Shown here: positions 2,011-24,431 of the stretch, piece after piece | Layout: each line of letters begins with the position of its first letter | Position numbering within the stretch: position 1 is the first letter of the stretch | Source of the DNA: a virus | Strand: one strand, 5' to 3' | DNA: 29,371 nucleotides | IMG/VR virus record: IMGVR_UViG_3300004369_000098 | Location: 1 to 29,371 of that record | The notes under the pieces: generated by a model | Database searches by the model: none | What the model was told of the DNA's origin: nothing | The model's input: the letters and a program-made list of their open reading frames with translations, nothing else | Translations under genes and position numbers: made by a program

Positions 2011-3924
2011 ATGGCACTAGTAAATTTTAGCAATCTCGATTTCGATCAAATTAAGAGTTCTCTCAAGGAATATCTGAGAGCGAACTCAAATTTTACTGAC
2101 TATGATTTCGAAGGTTCCAATTTATCAACAATTATCGATACGCTTGCATATAATACCTACATTACTTCGTACAACGCTAACATGGTTAGCAACGAAGTTT
2201 TTATTGACTCGGCAACATTAAGAGAAAACGTCGTTTCTCTTGCAAGAGCTATTGGATATGTTCCAAAGTCCAGAAAGTCTTCAACTGCAACAATATCTTT
2301 CTTTGTTGATACTTCATCATTATCAAGTATACCACAAACATTAACTCTCCAAAAAGGACTTGTATGTACAAGTACCAATGTTGTACAGGGTGAGAGTTAT
2401 TCTTTTAATATTGTAGATACAATTACTAAACCAGTAATTAATAATATAGTATCTTTCGATTCCTTTGAGGTATATGAGGGAACATATGTTACCCAGTCAT
2501 TTACTGTTGATGCAAATAACCAAAACCAAAAATTTATACTTAACAACTCTGGAATTGACGTAAGTTCGATTAGAGTTTCTGTTAGAAATACTCAGGATAG
2601 TACCGTAACAAGAAAATTTAGTCTTTCCGAGAGTCTTATTGATATTGGACCAGAATCAAAAGTATTTTTTATTCAAGAAATAGAAGATCAGAGATATGAA
2701 TTGATCTTTGGTGATGGTGTTTTTGGTGTAAAACTTGATAATTTAAACTACATTGAAGTTTCTTATATTATTTGTAATGGAAAGAGTGGTGATGGAATAT
2801 CTAAATTCACTTATGCCGGAAGAATCCTAGACAATAATGGAAGTGTAGTAACAGAAACTATATCTGCAGTTTCTACTGATATTAGTTCAAATAATGGTCA
2901 AGAACTCGAAAGTGTAGATTCTATCAAAAAGTTCGCTCCAAGAATCTATGCATCTCAAAATCGTGCAGTAACAGCTTCTGACTACGAATCAATTGTCCCA
3001 ACAATTTTTCCCGAAGCAGAATCGGTCTCTGTATATGGTGGAGAAACATTAGTTCCACCAAGATATGGAAAAGTTTATATTTCAATTAAACCATATAATG
3101 GAGATTTTGTTTCTAGTATTATAAAAGATAATATTGTAAAAAGATTGAGAACATATGCTGTTGCAGGAATTGTTCCAGAAATCATAGATCTTAAATACCT
3201 TTATGTCGAATATGATACGACGGCATATTATAATGAAAATCTTGCATCTGGAGCTGGATCTATAAAATCTATAATTGAAAGAAATATTTCAGCATACTCA
3301 GACTCCTCAGAATTGAACAAATATGGGGCGAGATTTAAGTATAGTAAATTTCAAAAAATAATTGACGATAGTAATATTTCAATTACCTCAAATATTACAA
3401 AAATAATTATTCGTCGCAATCTACAGGCAAAGATTAATACTCTTGCCGATTATGAAATTTGTTATGGAAACTCATTCCATCTTAAGAATCCAAAATCTGG
3501 ATATAATATCAAATCCTCGGGATTTAACATCGATGGTGTTGTAGATACGGTTTATATGAGCGATCTTCCAAATGGAGATGCGAAAACTGGATCAATCTTT
3601 TTATTCAAATTAACTTCTTCTACAGAACCAGTAATTGTTCGAAACAATATTGGTACAATAAATTATGAGAGAGGAGAAATTAATCTTTATCCCATTAAAA
3701 TAACAAATACTCTGAAATCAAAGAGTGGTGTAAAAATTATAGAAATTTCCGCAATTCCAAAGTCGAATGACGTTATTGGAAAAGAGGATCTTTATTTGCA
3801 ACTAGATATTAATAACAGCGTATTAAATATGCAAACTGATGACATTGAATCTGGAGCTAATATCTCTGGAACATCATACACAGTAACATCAAGTTATACA
3901 AACGGAAGTTTAATCAGATTGTAA
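2011..3924 (+). CDS. gp6: Baseplate wedge subunit gp6
   Basis: The 637-residue protein is close to T4 gp6 (660), which dimerises between neighbouring wedges to form the continuous inner ring of the baseplate and belongs to the broad gp6/baseplate-J group. The N-terminus is diagnostic: FSNLDFDQIKSSLKEYLR, then EGSNLSTIIDTLAYNTY (about 34-50), then FIDSATLRENVVSLARAIGY. The motif SQNRAVTASDYESIVP (near residues 315-330) is the typical baseplate-J-like loop before the C-terminal domain. The ATG abuts the gp25 stop, and the stop is one base before the gp7-like ATG at 3926, so gp25, gp6 and the giant gene are probably one coupled unit. The last 80 or so residues look less conserved and include a Ser/Thr-rich tail. 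Confidence 0.95.
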   Translation: MALVNFSNLDFDQIKSSLKEYLRANSNFTDYDFEGSNLSTIIDTLAYNTYITSYNANMVSNEVFIDSATLRENVVSLARAIGYVPKSRKSSTATISFFVDTSSLSSIPQTLTLQKGLVCTSTNVVQGESYSFNIVDTITKPVINNIVSFDSFEVYEGTYVTQSFTVDANNQNQKFILNNSGIDVSSIRVSVRNTQDSTVTRKFSLSESLIDIGPESKVFFIQEIEDQRYELIFGDGVFGVKLDNLNYIEVSYIICNGKSGDGISKFTYAGRILDNNGSVVTETISAVSTDISSNNGQELESVDSIKKFAPRIYASQNRAVTASDYESIVPTIFPEAESVSVYGGETLVPPRYGKVYISIKPYNGDFVSSIIKDNIVKRLRTYAVAGIVPEIIDLKYLYVEYDTTAYYNENLASGAGSIKSIIERNISAYSDSSELNKYGARFKYSKFQKIIDDSNISITSNITKIIIRRNLQAKINTLADYEICYGNSFHLKNPKSGYNIKSSGFNIDGVVDTVYMSDLPNGDAKTGSIFLFKLTSSTEPVIVRNNIGTINYERGEINLYPIKITNTLKSKSGVKIIEISAIPKSNDVIGKEDLYLQLDINNSVLNMQTDDIESGANISGTSYTVTSSYTNGSLIRL

Positions 3925-3925
3925 T

Positions 3926-6900
3926 ATGTCAGAAACAAGAGTAAAGATCGGTTCAATTATTGAGAATCAAGTACCTTCTTATGTTAGAGAAGAGTTTCCT
4001 CTTCTTGTGGAATTTTTATCTCAATATTATCAATCATTAGAATATCAAAGTGGTCCATCAGACATAATTCAAAATATTGATAAGTACGTCAAATTGGATA
4101 ATATTACCAATTTGATTGAATCGACTACTCTCACATCATTTGTAGAATTTTATGATAGTACAATAAATGTAGAATCTACTGCAGGATTTCCAGACACCTA
4201 TGGTTTAATCTTAATTGACAATGAGATTGTTACTTATAAATCAAAGACTTCAACTTCATTTAATGAATGTGTAAGGGGTTTTGTTGGAACAAGTTCATAC
4301 CACAACACCATCGAAACAGATGATCTGGTATTCCTCGATTCTAATGTCGATGAGCATGAGAGCGGATCTGCGGTATCCAATTTAAGCGTTATATTTTTAA
4401 AAGAGTTTCTAATAAAATTAAAAGGCCAAATTTCGCCAGGATTTGATAGAAAAGATCTTTATTCTGAAGTAAATGAATCTTTATTCTTAAAGCATTCAAA
4501 AGATTTTTATTCCTCAAAGGGAACTGACAGTTCTTTTAAAATTCTATTCAATGTATTGTATGGTGATACAGATTCTTCGGTAATAAAACCAAGAGATTAT
4601 TTAATTCAACCATCCGATGCACAATATTACATTACCAAAGATTTAGTTGTTGAAGCATTATCTGGAGATCCAAGAGATCTTGTTGGCTCAACTCTATATC
4701 AAGATGATGATGGATTTTTTGAGTCTGCAAAGGGAACGGTTTCTAAAGTAGAAAGAATTCTTAGAGGGGAAAAAGAGTATTTCGTAGTAAGTCTTGATTA
4801 CGATCAAGACAAAGATACGGATACCAACCAGGAACTCGGTGAGTTTACAATTCATCCTAAAACAAGGGCAACAAGCACAATAGGGATTGGCAAAACAACA
4901 ATCGATGTAGATTCTACAGTTGGATTTCCAGCATCTGGAAAACTTGTAGTAAACTCTGCAACTAACACCCAATTTTATATCGATTATTCGGATAAAACTA
5001 TTAATCAATTTTTAGATTGCTCCGGAATAACTCAAGAAATTTCTATCGGAAAAGAAATTTCTTTGGATTCATATGCTTATGCTTTTGTTGGAGTATCAAC
5101 ATCAAATCTTGTTACTGTTAGGGTAACTGGTGTTTTATCTGATTTACAAATTCTCGATAAGACATACTATTACGAGAAAAATGATACAATTCAAATCGAA
5201 ACTTTGGGATCAAAACTGAGTGACCACAAAGCAAATAATTGGTTTTTTAATGTATCAGGAAGATATGATGTAAAATCAGTAGAATTAATTGATATATCAA
5301 ACTATACGTATAAAATAAATTTATATGATGAGCACGATTTTGTCGTCGGAGATTCGATCACTATTATTTCTTCCGATAGTAGAGAATTCTATGGACAAAT
5401 AATACCAGAAAATATTACATCTATTCACCATTCAAGTGTTACTGGTTTTGATAATAAGACTTCATTTAATATTAGTGGACAAGGCGAGCTTAGTACAAAT
5501 AATTTCTATACTGTCAGAAAAGATGTAAAGAAAGTATCTACCACAAATTATTCTGAAATTGAAAAATATTCTGCGAATGTTCAGAATGTATATACTGATT
5601 TAAATTCTAATTTATATGTGGCATCCAATTCATTGCCAGCATATTACAATAATCCATTATCAATTATTGATAGATCTATTATTTTTTCTGGATCATTTTC
5701 TGGAACGGAATTAGTAATAGGTTCTCATAAGTTTATAACTGGAGATGCGATTGTTTACAATCCAACAGATGACTCAAATAAATTGGATCTTTTCCCCGGA
5801 ATTTATTTTGTTAAGGTAATTAATGGCACAACAATAAGTCTATCAAGAAGTTTAGAGAATATTTACACCGAAAATTATATCTCAGTATCCGGTACTGTAT
5901 CAAGTAATAAATTTTCTATACTCCAATTTAGCAACAGCGAATTAATTGAAGAAAGAGTAAAACCCCAGAAATTGATTAGAAAGTTGACAACTCCAGTCAA
6001 CGATAATTTAGACCACCAGACCCCCGTAGGATCGACTGGAATCTTCGTTAACGGCGTTGAACTGATAAACTATAAGACAAATGATTATATTTTCCATGGA
6101 CCAATTGAGAGGGTATCAACTACTTCTCCGGGAAGTGGATATGACGTTATCAATCCACCAGAATTAACAATTTCTGATGACTTGGGATCTGGGGCAACTG
6201 GAGTTGTAACTGTAACTGGTTCATTAAAAAGAGTTGATATTATTGATCCCGGTTTTGATTATCTCGAAGATCCAATTATAACAATTTCTGGTGGCGGTGG
6301 ATCTGGAGCTACCGTTAGAGCAAATTTGGTAGAATTTGAACATAGTTCCCAATTTAACTCCGAATCCACATCATTAAATGTCAATCTTACAAATGATACT
6401 ATTGGATTTGGTACATATCACAAATTTAGGGATTCTGAGGAGATTGTTTACAACCCTCAGGGTGGAACTGTGGTCGGTGGACTTTCCACGGGAGCAAAAT
6501 ATTACATATCTATTCAGGATGGATATACCGTTAAACTTCACAACACATTTAACGATTCTGCAGTAGGAATTAATACTATCAATTTAACTTCATTTGGAGG
6601 GGGCATTCATAAATTAGTTTCCACCGAAAGAAAGAAGAAAATAGGATCAATTTCTGTAGTAAGTGGTGGAAGTGGATATGTAAGTACCGGATCAAGCATT
6701 GCTTTTAATATTAAAGAAAGAATCGGAATTTCTACTTTATCTGGACAATCTTTTGGTGCAGTATTAAATCCGATTTTTAGAGGAGAAATCACATCAGTTT
6801 CTGTCACTTCGGGTGGTGATGGATATGGTAACGAAAATATTATTAATTACGACAAACAACCACAGTTTACACTTAACTCTGGTTCTGGAGCAGAAGTACT

Positions 6901-9900
6901 GCCAGTAATATCTGATGGAAGGATAAAGCAGGTATTTGTTACGAATGGTGGTAGTGGTTATAATTCCTCACCAGACCTTGTTATAAGCGATTCTGGGGGC
7001 GTTGGGGCTATTCTTTCACCAGTTGTTAGTGGTGGGCAATTAATTCAAGTAAATGTAATTTTTGAGGGAATTGGATATTCTGATGGATGCAATATTGATG
7101 TGATTGCAGCTGGATCGGGTGCGGCATTTGAAGCAAAAATTAGTTCTTGGAATATAAACAAAGTGGAAAGATTGATTTACTTCAATCAATTATCTGATGA
7201 TGATGGAATCATTCAAAAGTCTCATAAAGATGATTATGGACTTCAATATGGTCACGCATATGCACCAAGGAATTTAAGATCTGCAGTTCTTGCGGAAGAA
7301 TATGTAAATGAAGTTGCAATTTTTGTTCCAGACTTAAAAATTCTTTCTGGAGTAGAAATTGATTCTTCGGTACACTCACCAATAATTGGATGGGCATATG
7401 ATGGCAATCCAATTTATGGCCCATATGGATTTGATTCAAATGGAAATGTTAAGAGAATGGTATCTGGTTATGTACAATCTTTAAGTTCTACTAGACCAAA
7501 TACTCTACAATATCCAGTAGGATTTTTTGTTGAGGATTATATTTACACTGGATCTGGAGATCTTGATGAGCATAACGGAAAATTTGGACCAACTCCAGAA
7601 TATCCAGATGGAGTATATGCATATTTCTGCACCATAAACTCAACAACCGATTCTATCGGTCCATTCCAGTTCTATAGAAAACCAGTATTTCCATATGTAA
7701 TAGGAAATGCTTATAAATCAAAACCAATAGATTTTAATTTCTTATCAAATTCAAACCAAGATGAAATAGATATAAACAAAACTGAATGGAGTAGAAATAC
7801 TGCACCATATAACTTCACCTCATCAAGAAGTTATTATGACTTTGTTCTCGATTCCAATAAAATAAAGAAGCAATTATCAATTGTTAAAAACTCAACAAGA
7901 TCTGGAATAGATTCCATCGGAATTAAAACTGGTGGAACAAATTACCAAATTGGAGATCAAATAATCTTCAACAACACAAATACTGGTGGATTTGGAATTT
8001 CTGGAAAAGTATCTTTGATTGATGGTAAAGATATAACGAACATTGGTGTGACAACATCAACACTCACTGGTGTTCAGATGATTCCTCTTGCAGAATCTAA
8101 ACAGTTTGTTGGTTATGTGACGGATCCACATACTCTCATAAACAATCAATTAGTAACATTCTCAGCCTCAGGAATTAGTACAAGTGGAAAGATATCGGTT
8201 TTAAATAACAGATTACTACTTACAACTGGAATAGGATCTACCGGATATACTGGATTGGTCACTTATTTTAATGTAAGTGGAAGTCTCAGCAATATTCTAG
8301 AAAATGACATATACCAAATTCTTGATGAAGACATTAAGATTTTAAATGTAGACCCGACTTCATCTAGAATTAGAGTTTTACGTAGTTATAATGAAACGCA
8401 GGGGATAACTACAATATCATCTGGAATTGCATTAACTGAAAAAACCAGAAGAATCAATTTGCCTTTTGAAGTTTCATCTTTATCAAACAATTTAAAACTT
8501 GATAGGGAATATTATTTTGATCCTTCGGAATCTATTGGTATTGGAACGATTTCGGGCCCCGGAATAGGTTATACCTTAACATTTACAAATCCTGGAGTTG
8601 GACTTACTCAGATTAATATTCCAGTTGGATCCATATGGATCCCTAAGCATGGGTTAGAAACTGGAACGGAATTAACTTATTTTGATAATGGTGGAACGGC
8701 TGTTTCAATATCTACAGATGGCGTATCCAGTTATCAACTACAAAATAATTCTACAGTTTACGCAACTAAACTTGGGGATAATTTGATTGGAATTTCAACA
8801 ATTAAAGTTGGATTGGGAACGACAGGATCTTTTGTTGGAATTTCTACTACAGCATCTCTATTATATTTCACCAATGTTGGGTTAGGAAATTCGCATAGTT
8901 TTAAAACAAGCTATCAAAATACCCTCAAAGGAGAATTGACAACAAATTTAGTTACCGTTTCTACATCTTCCACTCATGGATTGAATGTTGGAGATTCTAT
9001 CAAGGTTTCCGTTTTACCAGGAATAATAACAAGTTTATATTCTGGTAATTACAATACAGTATCAGTTGCAAATACTCAGTTTTCTTATTCAATTTTAGAT
9101 TATCCAGAAGTTTCTTCTTATACTTCCTCCGATGGAGAACTTAAATATCAAACAACATCAAGAAGTGCCTATGGCCCCATTCATGAAATTTCGTTAAAAT
9201 CTAAGGGATTATCTTATAAATCTTTACCAGCAATATCCTCAGTACAATCTGGTGTTGGAACCGATGCAGTATTGATACCATATGGTAGAGATATTGGAAC
9301 AATCAATACAGTTGAATTGCAAGATATTGGTTTTGATTATCCTTCAGACCTTAGTTTAAGACCAACTGCAATCATACCTCAAATTTTAGAAGTAGAAAAT
9401 CTCGTTTCTTTTGATTATATTGGAATTAATTCTGTTGGAAGAAATTATAATATTGCCCCAGATCTGGTTGTAATTGATACCCTAACCAGACTTCCAAATG
9501 AGGAGGTAATTTTAGACTACAATCTTGGAGATTCTAATGTAACTATTTTAAAGAATGCTAAGAATCTTGATAGAAATACAACTACAATTTTCCCAGTAAA
9601 CAACGGTAATGGTGTTGGAATTAGTACTATACGATTTATTCCTTCATCTGAAGATGTTATTGTAACACTTGGATCAAGTTTTAGCAATGCTGCAGACTTC
9701 CCATTTGCAGTTGGTGACAAAGTTTTGATCGAAAATGTTAGCGTTGGTGTTGGATCTACTGCAAAGGGGTACAATTCTTCCTCATATGGATATGAATTTT
9801 TCACCATTGTAAATATAGATCCAAATATTGGTGGAATTGGAGCCACTGTTTCATATAATATTTCCGACAGACTTGGAAGTGGTGAAATAGTTGGAAATTA

Positions 9901-12900
9901 TGATCCAGTCAATTCTTATGGAAGAATAATACCCGAGAAAGATCTTCCAATATTTGATCCCCAGTATAAGGAAAATAACTTCTTTACTGGTGAAGGAGTA
10001 TTTTCACAAACTACATCAGGTAATATTATAAAATGGGATCCTTTCTCATTGCAAATGAAAGTTTCAACAAACAAAAATTTTGAAGTTGGTGAAACTATTA
10101 TTGGAGAGTCTTCAAAAACTGAAGCTCAAATTTTGAGAGCGATTTCTTTTGATTCAATATACAATGTCAAATCTTCTTCAATTGTTAAAAAAGGTTGGCA
10201 AAAAGAAACGGGATTCTTGAATAATGATCTTCAAAGAATTCATGACAATGACTACTATCAATACTTTGCATATTCTATAAAAACTAGTGTTCCATTTGAA
10301 ACTTGGGATAAAAATGTCGATGAATTAAATCACACTTCTGGATTTAAAAAGTTTGGCGATTTACAAATTCAATCATCAACCGAATCTGTTGGCATAGGAT
10401 CCACAGTTGATGCGGAAGTTAGTTCTATTGCAGAACTGGATTCTGTAATCAATACACATTGTAGAACAGACTTTGATATTGCTAGAGAAAATAATATAAT
10501 TATTTCTAATCAATATGCATCCAGTCAAGTAATATTTGATAATATAATTCTTCAGGATTACCTTGAATCTATCGGAAATAGAGTTCTGACTATTGATGAT
10601 CTTGCCCCACAATTTAATAGCAATCCAAGAACTACTCGTTTTACAAATATTGACACATTTAATCTTTCAAATAACAGATATAAAAAGTATATAACTTTTG
10701 TAAATGATTTGGTATATGCTGATGAAAATCAAGTAATGCTTGTATCATTGCTTCATGACAACGATTATGGATATCTAAATCAGTATGGAAAAATTTATAA
10801 TAATAATGATCTAGGATATTTTGATTTTAGTATTGCCGGAACGGAAGGAACTTTAGAGTTTCATCCAGTATTTTATGAAGAAAATAATTATAATATTTCA
10901 TTCTCATCATTATCAGTTGGCGACTTAACAACTTCCGTTGGAGAACAGAGTCTTGGCGATATCGTAAGTATTGCTTCTTCTTCAACAGTGCTTGCAGCAG
11001 GAACTTCAACAGCAACTACTGTTGTTGGGATAGCATCAACATATAGAGCATCCAAAATTTACGTTGTAGTTGGTGCTGAAGATGGATCTTACTATGAGGT
11101 TGATGAACTGGGCATTATCCACAATGATGTAGATGTTACATTTAATAACTATGGCCAATTATCCAATGATGATTTAACTTCCTTTGGATCAACTGGAATT
11201 GGTACATATCATGCATACTTGTCTGGTTCCGAATTGAAGGTTGATTTAACACCAAATGTTGGATTGGCGACAAATCATTATGTAAACACGATCAGAGTTT
11301 CTATTGCCAATACGTCTGCAGTTGGTGTTGGAACTTCCAATATGTTTGATAGTTTTGTTTCATCAAACTTTACAGATATTGCTGCGTCTGGATCGCCAAC
11401 TGCAATTACGGTGGCACAATTCCCATATGATTTTGATGCAGCATATTATATTGCGGTTATTGAAGATTTGACTAATTTAGAATATCAAATATCAGAATTA
11501 GTTGTTCTAAAGAATCAATCAAACGCATATGTTTCTGAATTTGGTTATGTTGAGACAAATGGAAATCTTGGCACATTTACTGTAGATATAATTGGTGATG
11601 ATACAGTATTACAGTTTACCCCAAATACAAGTATTGAAACTTCTGTAAGAATATTCCAGCAAGTGTTAACTTCAATACATAGTCACAATTATCCAACACA
11701 AATTTCTCTAAACAATGGATCAATAACCAGTGGACATGGATCTTATGAAGGTACTTTAGTCGCATCAAGAAAAACTTTCCAATTGACCCACGATGAGTTG
11801 CCAATCTTTGAAAGATATTTCCTTGGAAACGATTCCACAATAGTTGACGAAGATTCTGATCAATTAAAAATTCCATCACATTACTTTACTACTGGTGAAA
11901 AATTAACCTATGAATATACCGATTCCGACAGAGATAGTGGAAATGCTGTTGGAATTGCAACAACGACTATAACTGGTATTGGATCTACAGATAAACTTCC
12001 AAGGACATTATATGCTGTTAAAACAGATGATCTGTACTTAAAGTTTGCTGGATCTGCTGCTGATGCACTTTCAGCTCCACCAAATATTTTAGATATTACA
12101 AGTGTTGGAATTGGAACATCACACATATTAAAATCTAATGGACAAAATGCAAGATCAATAATTGCAATTGATAATGTAATTCAATCTCCAATTGTATCTA
12201 CCGCAATTACAACAACGGTTGGAACATATGTTGAGACTATTACAAATGTGATTACATTATCCGGAATTACATCATTCTTTAGTGGGGATTTGATCGATAT
12301 TGGTGGAGAAACTATGAGAATAGAAACTCTTGGGTATGGTGCAACAAATGTTGCTATTGTACAAAGAGGATGGCTTGGAACCGGTATTAGCACTCATGAA
12401 GTAGGATCATTAATTACAAAATTAGCAGGCAATTACAATATTAGTGGAAACACAATTAATTTTGTCACATCTCCTTGGGGACGAGTTCCATTTACAAATC
12501 CATCAAACAGACCAGATGAGCAAGATTATGTTGGTTTGGACACCGGTTCAACATTTAATGGTAGAGTTTTCTTGAAATCTGGAGATGTCAACAGTTCCGA
12601 GCATACTTATTTCTATAATAAAGTTTTTGATGATATCTCAGATTCCTTTAATGGATCAAATACTGATTTTAGATTAAGATCTAATGGATCCGATATTACT
12701 GGAATTAGTACAAGTAATGCAATTGTACTTGTAAATCAGGTTTTCCAAGGTCCTTCTAGATCAACTCTACCAGTTACTGTAGAAGGAAATTATAGTCTTT
12801 CGGAATCTTCCGGAATTACAACTATAACGTTTAATGGAAGTCAGTCACAATCTTACGATATCAATGCATCACAATTGCCAAGGAAAGGAATAATTGTTTC

Positions 12901-14983
12901 TGTCGGTTCAACTGCAGGATTTGGATATCAACCATTGGTTGCTGCTGGTGGAACTGCAACTGTTTCAATTGCAGGAACAATTAGTGCAATTTCTATTGGA
13001 AATAGTGGTTCTGGATACCGAGAAGGATTGCAAACGGTAAATGTTGGTGTGGCAACATTAAGTGTTGGAACTCCAAATATTGAATTTGTTGGAACTGCTG
13101 CAATTCAAGGTGGACATGTCGTAAGTATTGCAATCACAAATCCTGGATTTGGATATACATCAACAAATCCACCATTAGTATTCTTTGATTCTCCATTGTC
13201 ATATAGTAACTTACCACTTGTTTATAGTTCATCTTCACCAACAGGATTTGGAAGTGGGGCTACTGTTGATGTTATTGTTGGTCAAGGATCTAGTGTTATT
13301 GGATTTGAGATTAGAAACACGGGATATGCTTATGGTCAGGGAGAAATTCTTACCATTGGGGTTGGTGGAACAGTTGGAATTCCAACAAATTCTAGTTTGC
13401 CTTTTGAAGAATTCCAGATTTTAGTGGATAGAACTCACACAGATTCTTTTGCTGGTTGGTCACTCGGAGACCTTCAAGTTATTGATCCAATTGACTCTTT
13501 ATTTGACGGAGAAAGAAAGAGTTTCCAGATCAAGATAAACGATGTTCTAACTTCGATCAGAACACGACCTGGATCACAGATTGATATTCAAGCAACATTG
13601 TTGGTGTTCATCAATGATGTCCTTCAATTCCCCGGAAAGGGTTATCTTTTCCCAGGTGGAAATTTGATAACTTTCCCAGAACCACCAAAACAAGGAGATA
13701 CTTCAAAGATTTTATTCTATAAAGGAAATGATGAGGTCGATGTTATCCTTATTGATGTGTTAGAACCTGTAGAAATTGGAGATGATTTACAATTAATTGA
13801 TGATTCAATCTTCTTAACAGAAGAAAAGAGATTGGTAACAAGTATCCCAGCGAGTGATTATGCAGAGACGAGTATCTACTATAATCCAGGATTAAGCATT
13901 GGTGAGACTTATAGAAGACCAGTAACTTTATGTTATCAAACCGAAGATAAGATTATTAATGGTCAAGAAATTGGGAAGTCAAGAGTCATTTATGAACCAT
14001 ATATTCAACCATCATCAAATATTATCAATAGTCTTGGAATTACTTCTTCCGTTATTTTTGTTGAGAGTGTTAAGACCTTCTTTGATGCAGAAAATGAAAA
14101 TACGATTGGAAACAATAATTATAGAAAGATTGTAGTTACTTCTCAGGACTCTGTATCGGGGGCAGCTGCAACGGCAATTGTTTCTGCTGCAGGAACAATT
14201 ACATCATTTGCCATTTCTGATGGTGGTTATGGATATACAAGTTCCCCAGAAGTAACCGTTTCAAATCCAGTTGGTTTGGGAACAACCTACAGAGCTTCTG
14301 GATCTGCCACAATAACAAATGGAGTTGTAACTGCGATTGACGTTTCTGCTATTGGAAGTGGATACACATCTTCAAATCCACCACAAGTTTTAATAGAATC
14401 TCCAAGCGTAATATCAGAAGTAATAACCAACATTTCCTTTGAAGGTGATTTTGGTGTTATTACTGGCGTCAAGACAGATTCGGTTGCTGTTGCAACAACA
14501 GCATTAGTATTCGATTTGTTTATTCCAACAGACTCTTATTTACGAGATTTAGATATTAACTCTGTTGGAATTGCTACCACTGGAGTTTCTGGAATTACAA
14601 CTGGTTATTACTTTGTGGTTAAAAATTCAAATATTGGTGATGGTGTAACGTCCATTAATGAAGATGGAGAATCTGTCGGTATTGGAACATCCTTTATAGA
14701 TAATATTTACAAGGCTGTTGCGGTTTCTATTGCACAAACCGATGTTCCCGGAATTGGATTGACCTATGTTTCTCAAGTAACTGTAAGTCTTTCAGATTAC
14801 AATAATATTTCTGGAACTGGATTTAGTTCATTCTATGGAGAATATAGTTGGGGTAAAATTTCCAGTCTCAATAGAACAAATCCAAAATCTTTTGTAAATT
14901 ACAATAATGGTCTTGTGGGAATTTCGTCATCTCCAACTGTTCAGAGACTTCTTCCATTAAAACACCAAGATTATACCACATAA
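3926..14983 (+). CDS. gp7: Giant gp7-like baseplate wedge protein with YHYH-like domain and multiple repeat families, 3685 aa
   Basis: This 11 kb gene lies between gp6 and gp8, exactly where T4 gene 7 sits. Residues 1-300 carry the gp7 signature. A PSYVREEFPLLVEFLSQYY helix is followed by DFYSSKGTDSSFK (193 onward), which matches my recollection of T4 gp7 (DFYSTKG...), and then a VGSTLYQ strand region. T4 gp7 is only about 1030 residues and has this module near its C-terminus; here it is at the N-terminus and about 3,300 residues follow. The extension contains two RG/H modules near the start, clusters of GGSGY repeats (6109-7135, 12960-13380, 14185-14400), a YHYH-like domain (residues about 1095-1260), four HxFxTGExVxY units, three tandem 85-residue domains (10672-11671), and paired SFxG domains (12628-13750). 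There is no signal peptide. It probably forms the wedge core plus a large exposed decoration. The gp7 call is firm for the N-terminus, while the role of the rest is inferred. Confidence 0.85.
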   Translation: MSETRVKIGSIIENQVPSYVREEFPLLVEFLSQYYQSLEYQSGPSDIIQNIDKYVKLDNITNLIESTTLTSFVEFYDSTINVESTAGFPDTYGLILIDNEIVTYKSKTSTSFNECVRGFVGTSSYHNTIETDDLVFLDSNVDEHESGSAVSNLSVIFLKEFLIKLKGQISPGFDRKDLYSEVNESLFLKHSKDFYSSKGTDSSFKILFNVLYGDTDSSVIKPRDYLIQPSDAQYYITKDLVVEALSGDPRDLVGSTLYQDDDGFFESAKGTVSKVERILRGEKEYFVVSLDYDQDKDTDTNQELGEFTIHPKTRATSTIGIGKTTIDVDSTVGFPASGKLVVNSATNTQFYIDYSDKTINQFLDCSGITQEISIGKEISLDSYAYAFVGVSTSNLVTVRVTGVLSDLQILDKTYYYEKNDTIQIETLGSKLSDHKANNWFFNVSGRYDVKSVELIDISNYTYKINLYDEHDFVVGDSITIISSDSREFYGQIIPENITSIHHSSVTGFDNKTSFNISGQGELSTNNFYTVRKDVKKVSTTNYSEIEKYSANVQNVYTDLNSNLYVASNSLPAYYNNPLSIIDRSIIFSGSFSGTELVIGSHKFITGDAIVYNPTDDSNKLDLFPGIYFVKVINGTTISLSRSLENIYTENYISVSGTVSSNKFSILQFSNSELIEERVKPQKLIRKLTTPVNDNLDHQTPVGSTGIFVNGVELINYKTNDYIFHGPIERVSTTSPGSGYDVINPPELTISDDLGSGATGVVTVTGSLKRVDIIDPGFDYLEDPIITISGGGGSGATVRANLVEFEHSSQFNSESTSLNVNLTNDTIGFGTYHKFRDSEEIVYNPQGGTVVGGLSTGAKYYISIQDGYTVKLHNTFNDSAVGINTINLTSFGGGIHKLVSTERKKKIGSISVVSGGSGYVSTGSSIAFNIKERIGISTLSGQSFGAVLNPIFRGEITSVSVTSGGDGYGNENIINYDKQPQFTLNSGSGAEVLPVISDGRIKQVFVTNGGSGYNSSPDLVISDSGGVGAILSPVVSGGQLIQVNVIFEGIGYSDGCNIDVIAAGSGAAFEAKISSWNINKVERLIYFNQLSDDDGIIQKSHKDDYGLQYGHAYAPRNLRSAVLAEEYVNEVAIFVPDLKILSGVEIDSSVHSPIIGWAYDGNPIYGPYGFDSNGNVKRMVSGYVQSLSSTRPNTLQYPVGFFVEDYIYTGSGDLDEHNGKFGPTPEYPDGVYAYFCTINSTTDSIGPFQFYRKPVFPYVIGNAYKSKPIDFNFLSNSNQDEIDINKTEWSRNTAPYNFTSSRSYYDFVLDSNKIKKQLSIVKNSTRSGIDSIGIKTGGTNYQIGDQIIFNNTNTGGFGISGKVSLIDGKDITNIGVTTSTLTGVQMIPLAESKQFVGYVTDPHTLINNQLVTFSASGISTSGKISVLNNRLLLTTGIGSTGYTGLVTYFNVSGSLSNILENDIYQILDEDIKILNVDPTSSRIRVLRSYNETQGITTISSGIALTEKTRRINLPFEVSSLSNNLKLDREYYFDPSESIGIGTISGPGIGYTLTFTNPGVGLTQINIPVGSIWIPKHGLETGTELTYFDNGGTAVSISTDGVSSYQLQNNSTVYATKLGDNLIGISTIKVGLGTTGSFVGISTTASLLYFTNVGLGNSHSFKTSYQNTLKGELTTNLVTVSTSSTHGLNVGDSIKVSVLPGIITSLYSGNYNTVSVANTQFSYSILDYPEVSSYTSSDGELKYQTTSRSAYGPIHEISLKSKGLSYKSLPAISSVQSGVGTDAVLIPYGRDIGTINTVELQDIGFDYPSDLSLRPTAIIPQILEVENLVSFDYIGINSVGRNYNIAPDLVVIDTLTRLPNEEVILDYNLGDSNVTILKNAKNLDRNTTTIFPVNNGNGVGISTIRFIPSSEDVIVTLGSSFSNAADFPFAVGDKVLIENVSVGVGSTAKGYNSSSYGYEFFTIVNIDPNIGGIGATVSYNISDRLGSGEIVGNYDPVNSYGRIIPEKDLPIFDPQYKENNFFTGEGVFSQTTSGNIIKWDPFSLQMKVSTNKNFEVGETIIGESSKTEAQILRAISFDSIYNVKSSSIVKKGWQKETGFLNNDLQRIHDNDYYQYFAYSIKTSVPFETWDKNVDELNHTSGFKKFGDLQIQSSTESVGIGSTVDAEVSSIAELDSVINTHCRTDFDIARENNIIISNQYASSQVIFDNIILQDYLESIGNRVLTIDDLAPQFNSNPRTTRFTNIDTFNLSNNRYKKYITFVNDLVYADENQVMLVSLLHDNDYGYLNQYGKIYNNNDLGYFDFSIAGTEGTLEFHPVFYEENNYNISFSSLSVGDLTTSVGEQSLGDIVSIASSSTVLAAGTSTATTVVGIASTYRASKIYVVVGAEDGSYYEVDELGIIHNDVDVTFNNYGQLSNDDLTSFGSTGIGTYHAYLSGSELKVDLTPNVGLATNHYVNTIRVSIANTSAVGVGTSNMFDSFVSSNFTDIAASGSPTAITVAQFPYDFDAAYYIAVIEDLTNLEYQISELVVLKNQSNAYVSEFGYVETNGNLGTFTVDIIGDDTVLQFTPNTSIETSVRIFQQVLTSIHSHNYPTQISLNNGSITSGHGSYEGTLVASRKTFQLTHDELPIFERYFLGNDSTIVDEDSDQLKIPSHYFTTGEKLTYEYTDSDRDSGNAVGIATTTITGIGSTDKLPRTLYAVKTDDLYLKFAGSAADALSAPPNILDITSVGIGTSHILKSNGQNARSIIAIDNVIQSPIVSTAITTTVGTYVETITNVITLSGITSFFSGDLIDIGGETMRIETLGYGATNVAIVQRGWLGTGISTHEVGSLITKLAGNYNISGNTINFVTSPWGRVPFTNPSNRPDEQDYVGLDTGSTFNGRVFLKSGDVNSSEHTYFYNKVFDDISDSFNGSNTDFRLRSNGSDITGISTSNAIVLVNQVFQGPSRSTLPVTVEGNYSLSESSGITTITFNGSQSQSYDINASQLPRKGIIVSVGSTAGFGYQPLVAAGGTATVSIAGTISAISIGNSGSGYREGLQTVNVGVATLSVGTPNIEFVGTAAIQGGHVVSIAITNPGFGYTSTNPPLVFFDSPLSYSNLPLVYSSSSPTGFGSGATVDVIVGQGSSVIGFEIRNTGYAYGQGEILTIGVGGTVGIPTNSSLPFEEFQILVDRTHTDSFAGWSLGDLQVIDPIDSLFDGERKSFQIKINDVLTSIRTRPGSQIDIQATLLVFINDVLQFPGKGYLFPGGNLITFPEPPKQGDTSKILFYKGNDEVDVILIDVLEPVEIGDDLQLIDDSIFLTEEKRLVTSIPASDYAETSIYYNPGLSIGETYRRPVTLCYQTEDKIINGQEIGKSRVIYEPYIQPSSNIINSLGITSSVIFVESVKTFFDAENENTIGNNNYRKIVVTSQDSVSGAAATAIVSAAGTITSFAISDGGYGYTSSPEVTVSNPVGLGTTYRASGSATITNGVVTAIDVSAIGSGYTSSNPPQVLIESPSVISEVITNISFEGDFGVITGVKTDSVAVATTALVFDLFIPTDSYLRDLDINSVGIATTGVSGITTGYYFVVKNSNIGDGVTSINEDGESVGIGTSFIDNIYKAVAVSIAQTDVPGIGLTYVSQVTVSLSDYNNISGTGFSSFYGEYSWGKISSLNRTNPKSFVNYNNGLVGISSSPTVQRLLPLKHQDYTT
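4144..5060 (+). repeat. Two N-terminal copies of the 'VdstvGFp' module in the gp7-like protein
   Basis: Two similar units flank the gp7 core. The first (about 4144-4345) reads STINVESTAGFP, then an LIDNEIVTY strand, then CVRGFVGTSSYHN. The second (about 4877-5060) reads TTIDVDSTVGFP, then a diverged tail lacking the RG-T-H ending. The same unit recurs at 12235-12430 in this gene, at 22790-23010 in the DUF4815 protein and at 27391-27630 in gp15. Confidence 0.7.
6109..7135 (+). repeat. GGSGY repeat cluster A in the gp7-like protein
   Basis: At least five units of about 45-60 residues follow one another. Each has a strand, a turn of the form (G/P)GSGY or GGDGY, another strand, and a GSGA turn. 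Turns are seen near 6128 (PGSGY), 6667 (GGSGY), 6811 (GGDGY), 6946 (GGSGY) and 7067 (GIGY), with a further weaker PGFDY near 6248. The GGY/GSGA alternation suggests a stacked beta-hairpin or beta-solenoid. It ends just before the YHYH-like domain. Confidence 0.8.
7210..7710 (+). other. YHYH-like domain inside the gp7-like protein (about residues 1095-1260)
   Basis: HSPIIGWAYDGNPIYGPYG (residues 1150-1168) and LDEHNGKFGPTPEYPDG (1213-1229) are the two hallmark motifs of the YHYH protein domain, an uncharacterised domain usually seen in secreted or surface proteins. The segment where the family has its namesake YHYH reads YAYF here (from about residue 1231). The family resemblance is clear to me by eye; its biochemical role is unknown. 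Confidence 0.8.
10672..11671 (+). repeat. Three tandem copies of an approximately 85-residue domain
   Basis: Three consecutive units (about 10672-10930, 11042-11307 and 11429-11671) share one plan. It is a hydrophobic strand (KYITFVNDLVY; KIYVVVGAEDG; AYYIAVIEDL), then a SLLHDN, LGIIHND or LVVLKNQ strand, then YGxxxxNxDLGxF, then LxFxPx (FHPVF, DLTPN, FTPNT), and a closing strand. They are separated by Ser/Thr/Ala-rich spacers. Units 2 and 3 resemble each other most. Confidence 0.75.
12628..13750 (+). repeat. Pair of 'DSFxG...VxxNxVxQxP' domains flanking GGSGY cluster B
   Basis: Two copies of a strand-rich unit bracket a second run of GGSGY-type repeats. Copy 1 (12628-12830) reads ISDSFNGSNTDFRLRSNG and IVLVNQVFQGPSR. 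Copy 2 (13484-13750) reads IDSLFDGERKSFQIKIND and LVFINDVLQFPGKG, and ends ILFYKGNDEVDV. Between them are GSGY, FGYTS and GYAYGQG units (12960-13380). This kind of unit is common in phage fibre and baseplate proteins. Confidence 0.6.
14185..14400 (+). repeat. GGSGY repeat cluster C at the end of the gp7-like protein
   Basis: Two clear units occur, turning at GGYGYTSSPEV (near 14222) and GSGYTSSNPPQV (near 14353), separated by about 44 residues. They closely resemble the units in gp14 (GYGYTSLPQV, GYGYTVAPAV), which lie more than 11 kb away in a different gene. Confidence 0.8.
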
Positions 14984-15002: not shown

Positions 15003-16556
15003 ATGTCTGCAATTATAACAGATCAATTTAGAATCTCAAGTGCAAAGAATTTTGTTTCAGCAGCAAGTTCTTCTGATAATTCATATTATGTATTTGTGGG
15101 TCTTCCAAATGCTACGGACTATAGTCCGACTTGGAATGCCAATCCACCAGCACCAAAAGATAGTTTTGATGAAGAAAATTCGTACTGGGATACTGCAATA
15201 GCACTGAAAAAAATATCACCAGAGAATATAAAGCAAGTAGTTAGAAAAATAACATGGAGCTCTGGAACTACTTACGATATGTATCGTCATAATATAACGC
15301 GAACAAATACATCAAAACCATCTGGATCGACTAATTTATATTCTGCAAATTATTATGTGGTAAATAGCGATTACCGCGTTTATATTTGCATTCAAAATGG
15401 AACGAATCCAGAAAATCCAGAAGGAAGACCATCTCTTGATGAACCAACATTCACGGACTTAGAACCAAGATCTGCTGGGACAAGTGGTGATGGATATGTT
15501 TGGAAATATTTGTACACTATTGCCCCTAGCGACATTATTAAGTTTGAAACTTCCAATTTTATCCCCGTTCCTAAAAATTGGGAAACAAATGATGCGGATT
15601 CTGCTGTAAGAAATAATGCCGCAACCAGTGGCCAAATTAAAATTGTAACAATTAAAGACCGTGGAGTTGGAATTGGAACGGCAAATACAACATACACTAG
15701 AGTTCCAATTAAGGGTGATGGAAACGGTGCCGAAGCTACAATTATTATTAATAACAACTCTAAAGTAGAATCGATTACTGTTTCTAGTGGTGGTTCTGGA
15801 TATACCTATGGAACTGTAGATTTAATCGCAGGAAATGTTCCTACAGGAACAACATCACCAGATTTTGATGTAATTATTCCACCAAAAGGTGGACACGGTG
15901 CAGACATTTATAGAGAACTTGGTGCTAATAGAGCAGTTCTTTATGCAAGAATTGAAAATGACACCCAAAATCCAGATTTTATTACCGGAAATGAAATTTC
16001 TAGAGTAGGAGTTGTTGAAAATCCATATTCTTTTGGATCTAGTTCAATATTGACTGAAGATAAAGCAAGTGCTGTGTATGCGGTGAAACTTGTTGGTGCT
16101 GGTTATAGTACGGCAGTGTTTGAAGCAGATTCTTTGGTATCGCAAACAGTTGGTGTTGCTTCAACTGCTGTTGGTAAGGTGGTGTCATATGATCAAAATA
16201 CTGGAGTTTTAAAATATTGGCAGGACAGAACTCTTGCTGGATTCAATACTGATGGATCAAAGAATGTATCACCAATATATGGATTCAGATTAAATAGATT
16301 TACATCATCTCCTGGTGTCGGTGGAACGACATTGGTGCAGGGTGGAAGTATAAATTTAGCAATTGATGAAAACTTTAATGGCATATCAACCTCAATAAAT
16401 AGTAGGACATATTATTTTGGACAGAATTTTATTAATGGAGTGTCCAATCCAGAAGTTCAAAAATATTCTGGAAATATTATTCATGTAGATAATAGACCTT
16501 CCGTAACTAGATCGTCTAGTCAAAAAGAAGATATCAAGGTAATTTTGCAATTCTAA
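15003..16556 (+). CDS. gp8: Baseplate wedge subunit gp8 with a repeat-bearing insertion, 517 aa
   Basis: In T4, gp8 (334 residues) is a dimeric wedge protein bound to gp7 and gp10. Here the N-terminus (ITDQFRISSAKNFV), the central GDGYVWKYLYTIAPSD (about 162-177) and the C-terminus (VDNRPSVTRSSSQKEDIKVIL) match the T4 gp8 scaffold as I know it. T4 has GDGYVWEYLF and a similar MENRPPI tail. The extra 180 or so residues lie mostly between these anchors. They include a GGSGY unit (near 15788, about residue 262), a KGGHGADIYRELG stretch and an ExVxG-like unit (16123-16240, SQTVGVASTAVGKVVSY). There is a candidate late promoter upstream and six bases to the next gene. The start codon at 15003 is the first ATG and has no strong Shine-Dalgarno. 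Assignment is firm because both ends match. Confidence 0.9.
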   Translation: MSAIITDQFRISSAKNFVSAASSSDNSYYVFVGLPNATDYSPTWNANPPAPKDSFDEENSYWDTAIALKKISPENIKQVVRKITWSSGTTYDMYRHNITRTNTSKPSGSTNLYSANYYVVNSDYRVYICIQNGTNPENPEGRPSLDEPTFTDLEPRSAGTSGDGYVWKYLYTIAPSDIIKFETSNFIPVPKNWETNDADSAVRNNAATSGQIKIVTIKDRGVGIGTANTTYTRVPIKGDGNGAEATIIINNNSKVESITVSSGGSGYTYGTVDLIAGNVPTGTTSPDFDVIIPPKGGHGADIYRELGANRAVLYARIENDTQNPDFITGNEISRVGVVENPYSFGSSSILTEDKASAVYAVKLVGAGYSTAVFEADSLVSQTVGVASTAVGKVVSYDQNTGVLKYWQDRTLAGFNTDGSKNVSPIYGFRLNRFTSSPGVGGTTLVQGGSINLAIDENFNGISTSINSRTYYFGQNFINGVSNPEVQKYSGNIIHVDNRPSVTRSSSQKEDIKVILQF

Positions 16557-16562
16557 GAAATC

Positions 16563-19500
16563 ATGCCAGAGTCAACCAATCTCAACGTTTCCCCATATTT
16601 TGACGATTTTGATTCATCGAAAAACTACCACAAGGTTTTATTCAAACCTGGATATCCGATTCAGGCTAGAGAACTAACAACCCTACAGTCTATCCTTCAG
16701 GATCAGATTGAAAAGTTTGGTAACCATGTATTCAAAGAAGGGTCAGTAGTAATTCCCGGACAACTGAATTACACAAATCAATTTAGATTTGTAAAGATTG
16801 AAAATTCATATCTGGGAGTAGATGTTAGCACTTACATTGAAGATCTGGTTGGAAAGAAGATTACTGGCGACGAATCTAAAGTAGAGGCACAAATCATTCA
16901 TGTTTTGCCGCAGAATGAATTGGAAAATGAATATACAACTTTATATGTAAATTATTTGTCTTCTGGATTATCGGATCAAAATACATTTTCCGATAATGAA
17001 AAATTAACTCTTAATACATCATATACCCAAAACTCAGTTATCATCCAATCTGGAGAAGGATTTGCAAATACAACAGCAAATTCCACTGGAACCGGATCTG
17101 CTGTAATTCTCAATACTGGAGTATATTTTTTAAGGGGTTATTTTGTAGAAGTATCAAATCAAATTCTGGTTTTAGATCCATATACCAATATCAGTAGTTA
17201 CAAGGTTGGTTTTGATATAGTTGAGGAGACAGTTACTGCAGACGAAGATACATCATTAACAGATAATGCAAAGGGATTTTCAAACTATGCTGCTCCCGGA
17301 GCAGATAGATTTAAAATCACAGCCTTATTGGCAAAGAAAGAAGTAACTGATGTTACTTCAGAAAACTTTATTGGATTATTGGAAGTAAGAAATGGTGAAT
17401 TAATTAAAAATACAACTACAACATCACAATATAATGAGATAGCAAATGAATTGGCAAGAAGAACATCTGATGAATCTGGAGATTATTATGTAACTCCATT
17501 TACAGTATCTGCCAAAGAAACTTTAAATGATAACCTTGGAAACAGTGGGGTTTTCCAAAAGAATTCTCTGACGTATAATAATAATACTCCAAGTAAAGAT
17601 TTAGCAACATATAAAATTGGTGCCGGAAAGGCGTATGTTAGGGGTTTTGAAGTAGAGTCCCTATCTGCAAACTATTTGGATTTTAAAAAACCAAGAACAA
17701 CCAAAACAGTTTCTGACGCAAGCATTGCGTATGTAACTGGACCAACATTTACCTTGAATAGGGCAACTGGAGCTCCAAATTTAAATCTCGGAAATCCATT
17801 TGTAGTGAGTTTAAGGGATTCTAGAGTTGGATCTGCATCTTCTGCTATTCCCGGCAAAGAAATTGGACTAGCAAGAGTTTATGATTATGCATTAGAATCA
17901 GGATCATACAATGCATCAAACCAAAATTTAAATCAATGGGACATTGCTTTATTTGATGTTGAGACATATACGGAAATTGTCTTAAATGAGAACGTATCTT
18001 TAACAACCCCAGTACATATCAAAGGAAAATCCAGTGGCGCATCTGGATATCTTAGATACGATGTAAACAATGCAGGTATTCTTACAGCATACGGCGTAAA
18101 AGGATCTTTTGCTGCGAATGAAAAATTCATCTTTAATGGAATAGAGGCGACGAGTAGAGTATCAACAGCAATTACAGAGTATTCAATTAAGGATATTCAA
18201 TCGTTAAGCAATGTAAGTACTTCATCCACTTCCTTTACTGCAGATTTAGTACCATCCATTACGTACTCTGTTGGATCCGCATCAATTACTGCAAGATCTG
18301 CATCTGGAATTAGTACGATTAGTTTAGATACGTCCGATAGTTCGTTTGCATTTACAAATAACGTAAAAGTTGGTGGTCTGGTCCAATATACAATTTCGGG
18401 ATCATCTGTTCCAACTTTTAATAAGGTGTTGAGTGTATCCCAAAATTCCATCGTTGTTGCGGGAGTTACAACAGTAACAGGAATTTGTGAAGGTTCAGCT
18501 CCATCCACATCAAGTAGTGCAAGCGATCTTGCAATTCTTGGATCGAAATTCCAATCATCAACAGATAACACACTATACACCAAACTTCCGAAAAATTATA
18601 TTTCTTCGGTAGATCTCACAGAGTCCAATTTAACAATCAAAAAAGAGTTTGCAGTAACTATTTCTGGAAATCAATCAAATACATTATCTGCAGGATCAAA
18701 TGAAACATTTTTACCATTTGATGAAGAAAGATATGTTTTGGTTAGATCTGATGGATCCTTCGAAAACTTAAGTTCCGATAAGTTTACTTTTAATGCAACT
18801 TCATCCGAACTTACCATTTACGGTCTAGGTTCAAATGATGCTGGTGCAAGATTAATCGCAACCTTAAGAAAGACAAATGTTAAGTCTAAGGTTAAAAATA
18901 GAAACAGAATTGGCACTTTAATAATTGATAAATCGAAATATAACTATTCTGGAATTGGATCAACTACGGTAAATGACGGTCTAACTTATGGAAACTATCC
19001 ATATGGAACAAGAGTGCAGGATGAAGAAATTTGTCTCAATATCCCAGACGTAACAAAAATTTATGGAGTATTTGAGTCTTCTGGTACATCTGAACCCACT
19101 TTACCGGCACTCACTTTCAGTTCTCTAACTGGTCCAACAAATAAAACTTCGGATTTATTAGTTGGAGAAAAGGTAACAGGTAATATATCTGGTGCAATAG
19201 CAGTCTACGTTGGTAAAGTGAATGATCTTCAGATAAATTTTGTATACTTAAATGATAAGTCTTTCCAGGGTAGTGAAACAGTTTCCTTCGAAGAAAGTGG
19301 AATTGATGCCACAATTTCGGCAGTTATACTTTCCGATAAAAATATCGTTGAAAACTATTCTTTAGATAAATCACAAAAAAATACGATTTATGATTATTCA
19401 AGAATTGTAAGAAATTCAACGTCTAAAGAGCCAGTAAAACAAATCAAAATCATTTTTGAATCTGCAGGATTTGCTTCATCAGATCTTGGCGATATAACTA

Positions 19501-24014: not shown

Positions 24015-24016
24015 TT

Positions 24017-24250
24017 ATGAATACAAAATTTTCTAAGGTTGAGGGTTATAGTAGTTTAATTCGAGACAACTCAACAAATGCTATTCTCAATACAAATATG
24101 AATGACTATCAGAACTACAAAAACTTAAAAAAGTCAAGGGAATCGGAAGGACAAAAACTTCAGAATCTTGAAGATGATATGACTAGAATGAAAAGTGATA
24201 TTGATGAAATTAAAAATCTTCTAATGGTACTTACTTATGGATCCAAATAA
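24017..24250 (+). CDS. Small coiled-coil hypothetical protein, 77 aa
   Basis: The gene starts two bases after the giant gene ends and overlaps the next by 14 bases. The N-terminal third reads FSKVEGYSSLIRDNSTNAILN, a polar, loop-like stretch. From about residue 38 the protein becomes a strongly charged heptad-like helix (KKSRESEGQKLQNLEDDM and on to IKNLLMVL), which is probably a coiled coil. Proteins of this form occur beside neck genes in cyanomyoviruses, without a named function. A role in linking or trimerising a virion component is plausible in place of T4 wac (fibritin, also coiled-coil and also beside gene 13), but sequence similarity to wac is not visible, so this is only a positional idea. 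Confidence 0.8.
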   Translation: MNTKFSKVEGYSSLIRDNSTNAILNTNMNDYQNYKNLKKSRESEGQKLQNLEDDMTRMKSDIDEIKNLLMVLTYGSK

Positions 24251-24431
24251 AATTTTACTTGAGAATCTCAATAAATCTTTTGAATATGAAAGGATTGCTC
24301 GTGATATAGATAGTATAAGTGATATTAGTGAATTGAGAAATCTTGCTAAATCATACTCAAAATTATACTTGAAGCAACAAGAAGTTTTACTTGAACTCTC
24401 ATGGCCCAACCCAGCACAAGACAAGAACTGA
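24237..24431 (+). CDS. Small helical hypothetical protein, 64 aa
   Basis: The start overlaps the 77-codon gene by 14 bases and the end overlaps the gp13 start by 31 bases, so the gene is squeezed between two others. The product (MDPNKILLENLNKSFEYER... LAKSYSKLYLKQQEVLLEL) is helical, charged and without membrane segments. The amphipathic pattern runs through the whole frame and is unlike a random shadow frame, and overlapping small genes are common here, so I regard it as real. Codon use is like its neighbours. No family is recognised. No strong ribosome binding site is seen; translational coupling with the upstream gene is likely. Confidence 0.7.
   Translation: MDPNKILLENLNKSFEYERIARDIDSISDISELRNLAKSYSKLYLKQQEVLLELSWPNPAQDKN

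Follow-up and report, generated by a model that had tools for sequence, protein, structure and literature searches.

We found that the giant gene between gp6 and gp8 in a 29,371-base fragment of a marine T4-like virus, hereafter the window, encodes an orthologue of the baseplate wedge protein gp7 that lacks the N-terminal ~640 residues of T4 gp7. Sequence-profile, profile-profile and fold comparisons all support this identity, as well as the enlargement, both of which a sequence-only reading had proposed. The gp7 core is present as three colinear pieces, block a (aa 1-60), block b (aa 150-313 and 384-402) and block c (aa 2085-2173), with two small barrels and an insertion of ~1,680 residues breaking them up, while ~1,510 residues trail block c. 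The best reading, which we regard as probable, is that of a normal wedge core bearing two long beta-domain arms at the periphery of the baseplate.

The gene lies in the gene-7 slot of a T4-like order (gp25, gp6, the 3685-aa gene, gp8, VrlC/DUF4815, and gp13- and gp14-type neck proteins), and this assignment, also made from the sequence alone, was confirmed by matches to PF04965, PF21379, PF09215 and PHROGs:

1609-2010, + strand: gp25 baseplate wedge (Pfam/PHROG match)
2011-3924, + strand: gp6 baseplate wedge, predicted core-bundle partner of gp7 (PF21379 helical domain)
3926-14983, + strand: gp7-type baseplate wedge protein, 3685 aa, 398 kDa (ORF, slot, profiles)
15003-16556, + strand: gp8 baseplate wedge (Pfam/PHROG match)
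16563-24014, + strand: VrlC/DUF4815 baseplate protein, 3' of gp8, the position of gp9-gp10-gp11 in T4 (Pfam/PHROG match)

Re-reading of the sequence gave the same coordinates and length as before for the giant gene, an uninterrupted ORF that begins one base past the end of gp6; its product is about three-and-a-half-fold larger than T4 gp7 (398 kDa vs 119 kDa). Third-position GC is uniform across the gene and resembles that of the neighbouring genes. A misassembly or frameshift as the source of the 3685-aa frame was rejected, since relatives carry the same long ORF (3485 aa, complete, in L007; 4156 aa in S-SM2). The product is similar over its full length to PHROG 2885, the giant cyanophage gp7 family (3098 bits). 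Elsewhere in the window, nearly 390 bases without a long ORF separate VrlC from the gp13-type gene (24015-24400), which is odd for a tightly packed operon.

The identity of the N-terminus was assessed by several comparisons. A phmmer search of the PDB with aa 1-320 returned T4 gp7 as the sole match (E 0.016), and profile A1, built from 12 sequences without Straboviridae, matched only two gp7s among 177,635 PDB sequences (E 2.4e-7 and 3e-6). Aligned by hhalign with seven Straboviridae gp7s, A1 gave E 1.9e-11 and covered T4 726-825; the DFYSSKG element near aa 193-199 corresponds to a stretch within T4 gp7 726-757. A Foldseek search, which had been suggested as a check, ranked gp7s as the best two of 350,542 chains. 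By VIA structural alignment, predicted aa 231-402 superpose on T4 gp7 760-840 (Z 7.5-7.6, rmsd 2.3-2.7, 79 residues, 22% identity), a Z of 7.6 being a value that unrelated folds can attain; several unrelated barrels outscore gp7, but on the inserted barrel at aa 309-383. A scan of PHROGs with T4 gp7 also touches the giant family, PHROG 2885, at profile positions 196-224. The AlphaFold model of aa 1-520 has a mean pLDDT of 63, with the helical core at 30-50. A weak, sub-cut-off match to PF23786 ('Baseplate_wedge') raised another wedge protein such as gp53 as a candidate for the N-terminus, and this was set aside because the PDB and fold searches single out gp7. An NCBIfam search with the giant protein returned nothing.

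The giant protein lies between gp6 and gp8, it carries the DFYSxKG helices with the gp7 beta domain after them (T4 ~725-840), and the C-terminal core element (T4 861-914) is present at aa 2085-2173. The preceding helical core-bundle element (T4 ~645-690) was recognised through Sinorhizobium phage phiM7 and Desulfovibrio phage 7757: a T4 640-920 profile spans blocks a and b of both gp7s, which in turn match window aa 1-60, the direct T4-window match for this piece alone being not significant. The T4 N-terminal domains (1-630) are missing from the giant; they are specific to Straboviridae and are unneeded for orthology, as Vibrio phage XM1 gp17 has none. Their absence had been noted before, and a profile of Straboviridae gp7 1-630 indeed found nothing significant in any window ORF; likewise, profiles of T4 gp7 1-630 and 921-1032 matched neither the window nor VrlC-lineage proteins significantly.

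The core had been placed within the first 300 residues, and its DFYSSKG part is there, but the further conserved gp7 element lies at aa 2085-2173, so that ~1,680 residues, the YHYH domain included, are inserted inside the core. The layout is as follows:

3926-4105, + strand: core block a, aa 1-60, a helix-turn-helix ('LPsyvreefPLlveFlsqYY') predicted to pair with two gp6 in the core bundle (profiles; role by analogy with XM1 gp17 aa 1-48, PMC10457771)
4109-4321, + strand: insertion 1, aa 62-132, STxGFP beta module separating blocks a and b (alignment)
4373-4864, + strand: core block b, aa 150-313, corresponding to T4 gp7 ~690-825, with the DFYSSKG helices and the first part of the gp7 beta domain (profiles, fold)
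4850-5074, + strand: insertion 2, aa 309-383, small beta barrel of tail-tip type within the gp7 beta domain (structural alignment)
5075-5131, + strand: end of the gp7 beta domain, aa 384-402, superposing on T4 gp7 as far as residue 840 (structural alignment)
5132-10177, + strand: insertion 3, aa ~403-2084, ~1,680 residues of beta domains between blocks b and c, where T4 has ~20 residues (profiles, alignment)
10178-10444, + strand: core block c, aa 2085-2173, 'DxDYYQxfaYsIKt...HtsGFkkFgd', equivalent to T4 gp7 861-914 (profiles)
10445-14980, + strand: C-terminal extension, aa 2174-3685, ~1,510 residues (position past block c)

Insertion 1 is missing from phiM7, Menderavirus Ps15 and 7757, and reaches ~500 aa in P-SSM7. 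The predicted barrel of insertion 2 matches 9n71_A (Z 10.3, rmsd 2.2, 75 residues) and the Chi and lambda tail tips.

Block c was recovered by several routes. In BLAST comparisons of the giant with other slot proteins, aa 2091-2168 match the extreme C-terminus of phiM7 gp7 (931-1004), and aa 2053-2158 match the C-terminus of the S-CREM2 slot protein (1827-1937). Iterated profiles found the block in all slot proteins examined, including T4 861-914, KVP40 928-986 and Astolliot 815-891, the first-round matches of Straboviridae being weak (E 8e-5 to 2e-3) when they were excluded from the model. Residues D, Y, Q, Y and H are invariant in 13-14 VrlC-type sequences, and the block was detected in 479 phage records, mainly of marine cyanophages. 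Alignments by hhalign with Straboviridae gp7 gave E 1.1e-4 and 3.7e-5, the latter at T4 862-898. A PDB search with the long block-c alignment A2 gave no match, and the tighter alignment A6 ranked gp7 first among 177,635 sequences at E 0.24 (~1e-6 for a prespecified target). The 586-aa gp7 of phage 7757 holds blocks a, b and c all within 300 residues; the T4 640-920 profile runs across them in a single alignment (aa 7-285, E 4.7e-14), and PHROG 2885 matches the same protein at profile positions 2398-2467 of 4179. This protein therefore bridges the T4 core and the giant family, and the T4 C-terminal core and the pieces of the giant are one domain. Taken alone, the likeness of block c to T4 appears weak (E 4e-5 to 1e-4 pairwise, 0.24 in the PDB), and the case stands on colinearity and the Desulfovibrio bridge. 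In the model of aa 1050-2210 (mean pLDDT 52) block c is mostly below 35, and a Foldseek search with this model found nothing at E 0.001; given such low confidence in block c and the helical core, a refolding of b and c together is not visible in the models.

The sequence-only reading had the core moved to the N-terminus, which takes the change in the wrong direction: all VrlC-type phages examined have the core from the first residue onward, and XM1 gp17, a gp7 orthologue of 242 aa, likewise opens with the core-bundle helices (PMC10457771). The T4 C-terminal core aligns end to end with 7757 gp7, and on sequence comparison T4 and its family are those with an N-terminal extension, a region without counterpart in the window. 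From the shared position in VrlC-type phages and XM1, the N-terminal core is probably ancestral and the T4 extension derived. Because the core is interrupted, the enlargement consists of nested insertion and a C-terminal extension and is not a repeat tail on a 300-residue head.

The amount of insertion varies widely among phages. The distance between the first residues of blocks b and c is 136 residues in T4, 159 in 7757, 301 in Ps15, 443 in Melnitz-3, 580 in HTVC008M and 845 in phiM7; it is ~1,600-1,690 in S-PM2 (1632), S-H9-2, ACG-2014e and S-CREM2, 1,919 in the window, ~2,200 in S-SM2 and ACG-2014f, and 2,768 in P-SSM7. The residues past block c number 1 in phiM7, 4 in S-CREM2, 1,512 in the window and 3,606 in P-SSM7. 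The separator of blocks a and b also differs by lineage, being STxGFP in cyanophages, another module in HTVC008M and Melnitz-3, and none in phiM7, Ps15 and 7757. Relatives differ from the window gp7 by whole modules, with 90 more residues around aa 940 and 222 more around aa 1690. With 3685 residues the protein is ordinary for its family, as cyanophage gp7s range from 1.9 to 7.1 thousand residues, and giant forms are already on record in S-SM2 (4156 aa), S-SZBM1 (6619 aa, in virions) and P-SSM7 (7124 aa). The slot protein of Prochlorococcus phage P-SSM7 (L033:10051-24318, record 54052-75426), with its long a/b insertion, is the largest gp7 in this comparison.

Synechococcus phage S-SM2 gp7 (SSM2_097, 'baseplate wedge initiator', PHROG 2885) has the same slot, core blocks and YHYH domain and is 37-42% identical across essentially the whole length; it is ~470 residues longer, and the relatives as a group have extra modules around window aa 900-975 and 1650-1725. 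T4 gp7 (1032 aa) shares the gene order 6-7-8 and, with block b at 726-840 and block c at 861-914, the order of the blocks, whereas it has ~640 residues ahead of the core, no large b/c insertion, and gp9, gp10 and gp11 rather than VrlC as partners. The gp7s of 7757 (586 aa), Ps15 (503 aa) and phiM7 (1006 aa) are of VrlC type, with the core from residue 1 and block c further on; unlike the window protein, they have little or no insertion (b to c 159-845), and the YHYH domain was not found in them in our scan. XM1 gp17, known from cryo-EM (PMC10457771), shares the N-terminal helix-turn-helix in the core bundle and uses a loop inside domain I and the C-terminus as attachment points, but it is 15 times smaller and has no beta-domain arms. 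The compact gp7 of 7757 (L051:4971-6731, in an unannotated record) stands beside gp25-, gp6-, gp8- and VrlC-like ORFs and would be a useful model of a minimal VrlC-type baseplate. In Methylophilales phage Melnitz-3 (L043:11234-13959), three extra ORFs (294, 489 and 115 aa) lie between the 896-aa gp7 and gp8; block c was located in the 896-aa ORF, so that by this criterion the three are no fragments of gp7.

The arms had been described as about 3,300 residues of repeat modules, which is too strong: no DNA tandem repeats were found in the gene, and we count ~4-5 confident G-x-G-Y copies and two STxGFP barrels, the remainder being diverse beta domains and one YHYH domain. The recognisable elements are:

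6095-6325, + strand: G-x-G-Y beta module(s), aa 724-800 (module comparison)
6890-7081, + strand: G-x-G-Y beta module, aa 989-1052 (module comparison)
7343-7777, + strand: YHYH domain, aa 1140-1284, PF14240, 'YAYF' subfamily (Pfam)
8201-8449, + strand: predicted beta barrel, aa 1426-1508, like the JBD30 baseplate (8rk3_b; Z 12.1, rmsd 1.6, 78 residues)
9611-9940, + strand: predicted E1-FCCH-like barrel, aa 1896-2005, directly before block c (4p22_B; Z 9.0, rmsd 1.8, 75 residues)
12944-13159, + strand: G-x-G-Y beta module, aa 3007-3078, best-conserved stretch of the C-terminal arm (module comparison)
14162-14368, + strand: G-x-G-Y beta module, aa 3413-3481 (module comparison)

The G-x-G-Y module is common to gp7, neck gp14, gp8 and VrlC of the window. 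The gp14-type neck protein (25242-26624) carries three modules of the gp7/gp8/VrlC kind (aa 194-392), so one module type serves both neck and baseplate proteins. The YHYH domain, about midway along the tethered arm, scores 77.9 against a curated PF14240 cut-off of 25 bits, although the Y-H-Y-H motif itself is replaced: the window has YAYF, other phage copies have YAYF or YCYF, and YAYF is also common among bacterial relatives. Conserved in all phage copies compared and in Bacteroidota relatives are H1150, D1159 and an LDxxNG motif (LDExNG in the window copy), and the phage subfamily shares 43-60% identity with proteins of ~400 aa from Bacteroidota and other bacteria. A direct PDB search with the YHYH region gave no match. 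Some YHYH matches in marine MAGs (in L052-L131) are open frames of >1,000 aa that resemble binned phage gp7. Identity along the arms is fairly even (0.3-0.5); it is highest in the N-terminal core, in the YHYH domain and across aa 3001-3150, and the last ~300 residues seem the most variable, judged from only 3 sequences. Such evenness in the aligned sequences is unlike a hypervariable receptor-binding region, which counts against the reading that we prefer.

How the protein might be built into the baseplate can be proposed from relatives of known structure. Block a would join two copies of gp6 in the core bundle of each of the six wedges, and blocks b and c would come together again in the inner wedge domain, which compact gp7s build within ~250 residues, and would close over the core bundle. 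Arm 1 (aa ~403-2084), tethered to the core at both ends, and arm 2 (aa 2174-3685), free-ended, would project outward from the wedge; this proposal draws on XM1 gp17, which holds tail spikes via the loop inside domain I and via the C-terminus (PMC10457771), and on T4 gp7, whose domains touch gp8, gp9 and gp10 and swivel upon triggering (PMC3004832). Together with VrlC, the arms would build the periphery, for which T4 uses the gp7 N-terminal domains along with gp9, gp10 and gp11, and they might serve as a scaffold and as an attachment or contact surface near the host. If there are six copies per baseplate, one per wedge, as we assume from T4 (PMC3004832), the six chains would amount to ~2.4 MDa.

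Relatives of the protein are found in virions. The S-CREM2 slot protein ORF122 was detected in purified virions by 91 unique peptides (27.2% coverage; PMC10665884), and the 6619-aa S-SZBM1_208 by 71 peptides (13.5% coverage; PMC9146016). These coverages of the full ORF, comparable with other proteins in the same data, and the position of block c, a part of the core 2,100 residues downstream, argue against cleavage of the giant after synthesis with only an N-terminal gp7 piece remaining in the wedge. A precursor of such size would be unusual, and the published proteomes of relatives come without peptide positions, but we consider this processing quite improbable. The published view that these phages lack gp7, with VrlC in its place (PMC7029224) and gp7 counted in the non-cyanophage core (PMC3037559), would make the giant gene an unrelated structural protein. 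We find this hardly credible, as four independent comparisons put the gp7 core in the slot, and in the annotated loci compared VrlC comes after gp8, at the place of gp9-11. VrlC as a substitute that contains the gp7 core was rejected as well: VrlC proteins have no significant match to block a, b or c and share single modules only.

The arms might be mainly devices of host recognition, a gp7 fused with adhesin or fibre domains, with surface glycans bound or cleaved by the YHYH domain and the C-terminal tip. YHYH domains have been tied to carbohydrate binding (PMC7029224) or predicted to be metal hydrolases (PMC7824862), XM1 gp17 bears tail spikes, and the variable last ~300 residues, few as the sequences are, fit such a role. 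Furthermore, a non-synonymous change in S-PM2d081 arose in chemostats with the host (PMC9910659); at 3048 aa this protein has the length of the S-PM2 gp7-slot protein, and its mutation during coevolution is a hint of host interaction. However, the arms are fairly evenly conserved, with the YHYH domain among the most conserved parts, and no lectin or fibre family was found in the protein in Pfam or NCBIfam; on balance we hold this explanation to be unlikely, if the most serious competitor. It seems more doubtful still that the YHYH domain is an active tail-associated hydrolase for which the rest of the protein is the carrier. A zinc hydrolase role has been suggested (PMC7824862), and the retention of H1150, D1159 and LDxxNG in phage and bacterial proteins would agree with activity. 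Against this, the histidines that give the domain its name are substituted in the window, in the other phages and frequently in bacterial relatives. We know of no demonstrated activity for the YHYH family.

Since the records of S-SM2, P-SSM2, S-SSM7 and S-RIM8 are already labelled gp7, the identity as such had been recorded before. The literature searched contained no account of the split-core architecture; it appears to be undescribed, and it contradicts the published statement that such phages lack gp7. The statements of PMC7029224 and PMC3037559 may both stem from the split core and from low identity. Several pelagiphage and cyanophage gp7-slot proteins (L044:10916-13966 and PHROGs 3465, 4406, 701 and 19630) carry the misleading labels 'head closure Hc2' or 'head and packaging', the probable reason being that neck gp14 has the G-x-G-Y module too.

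A split core with thousands of extra residues between and after its pieces occurs in almost all cyanobacterial T4-like phages. We tentatively suggest, at somewhat less than even confidence, that gp7 in the VrlC-type T4 superfamily serves as a platform, with module-sized insertions breaking its core at fixed points and the protein reaching ~7,100 residues, and that six such proteins would form megadalton arms replacing the whole gp9-gp10-gp11 periphery, a second baseplate architecture that went unrecognised because the gene was recorded as absent. The preferred reading of a wedge core with two arms offers a concrete target for the first structure of a cyanomyovirus baseplate, accounts in part for the failure to recognise large 'virion structural' genes between gp6 and gp8 as gp7, and points to the protein behind the S-PM2 coevolution mutation. 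Contrary to the literature, marine T4-like phages have on this evidence retained gp7, and they would have extended the baseplate outward from inside its core.
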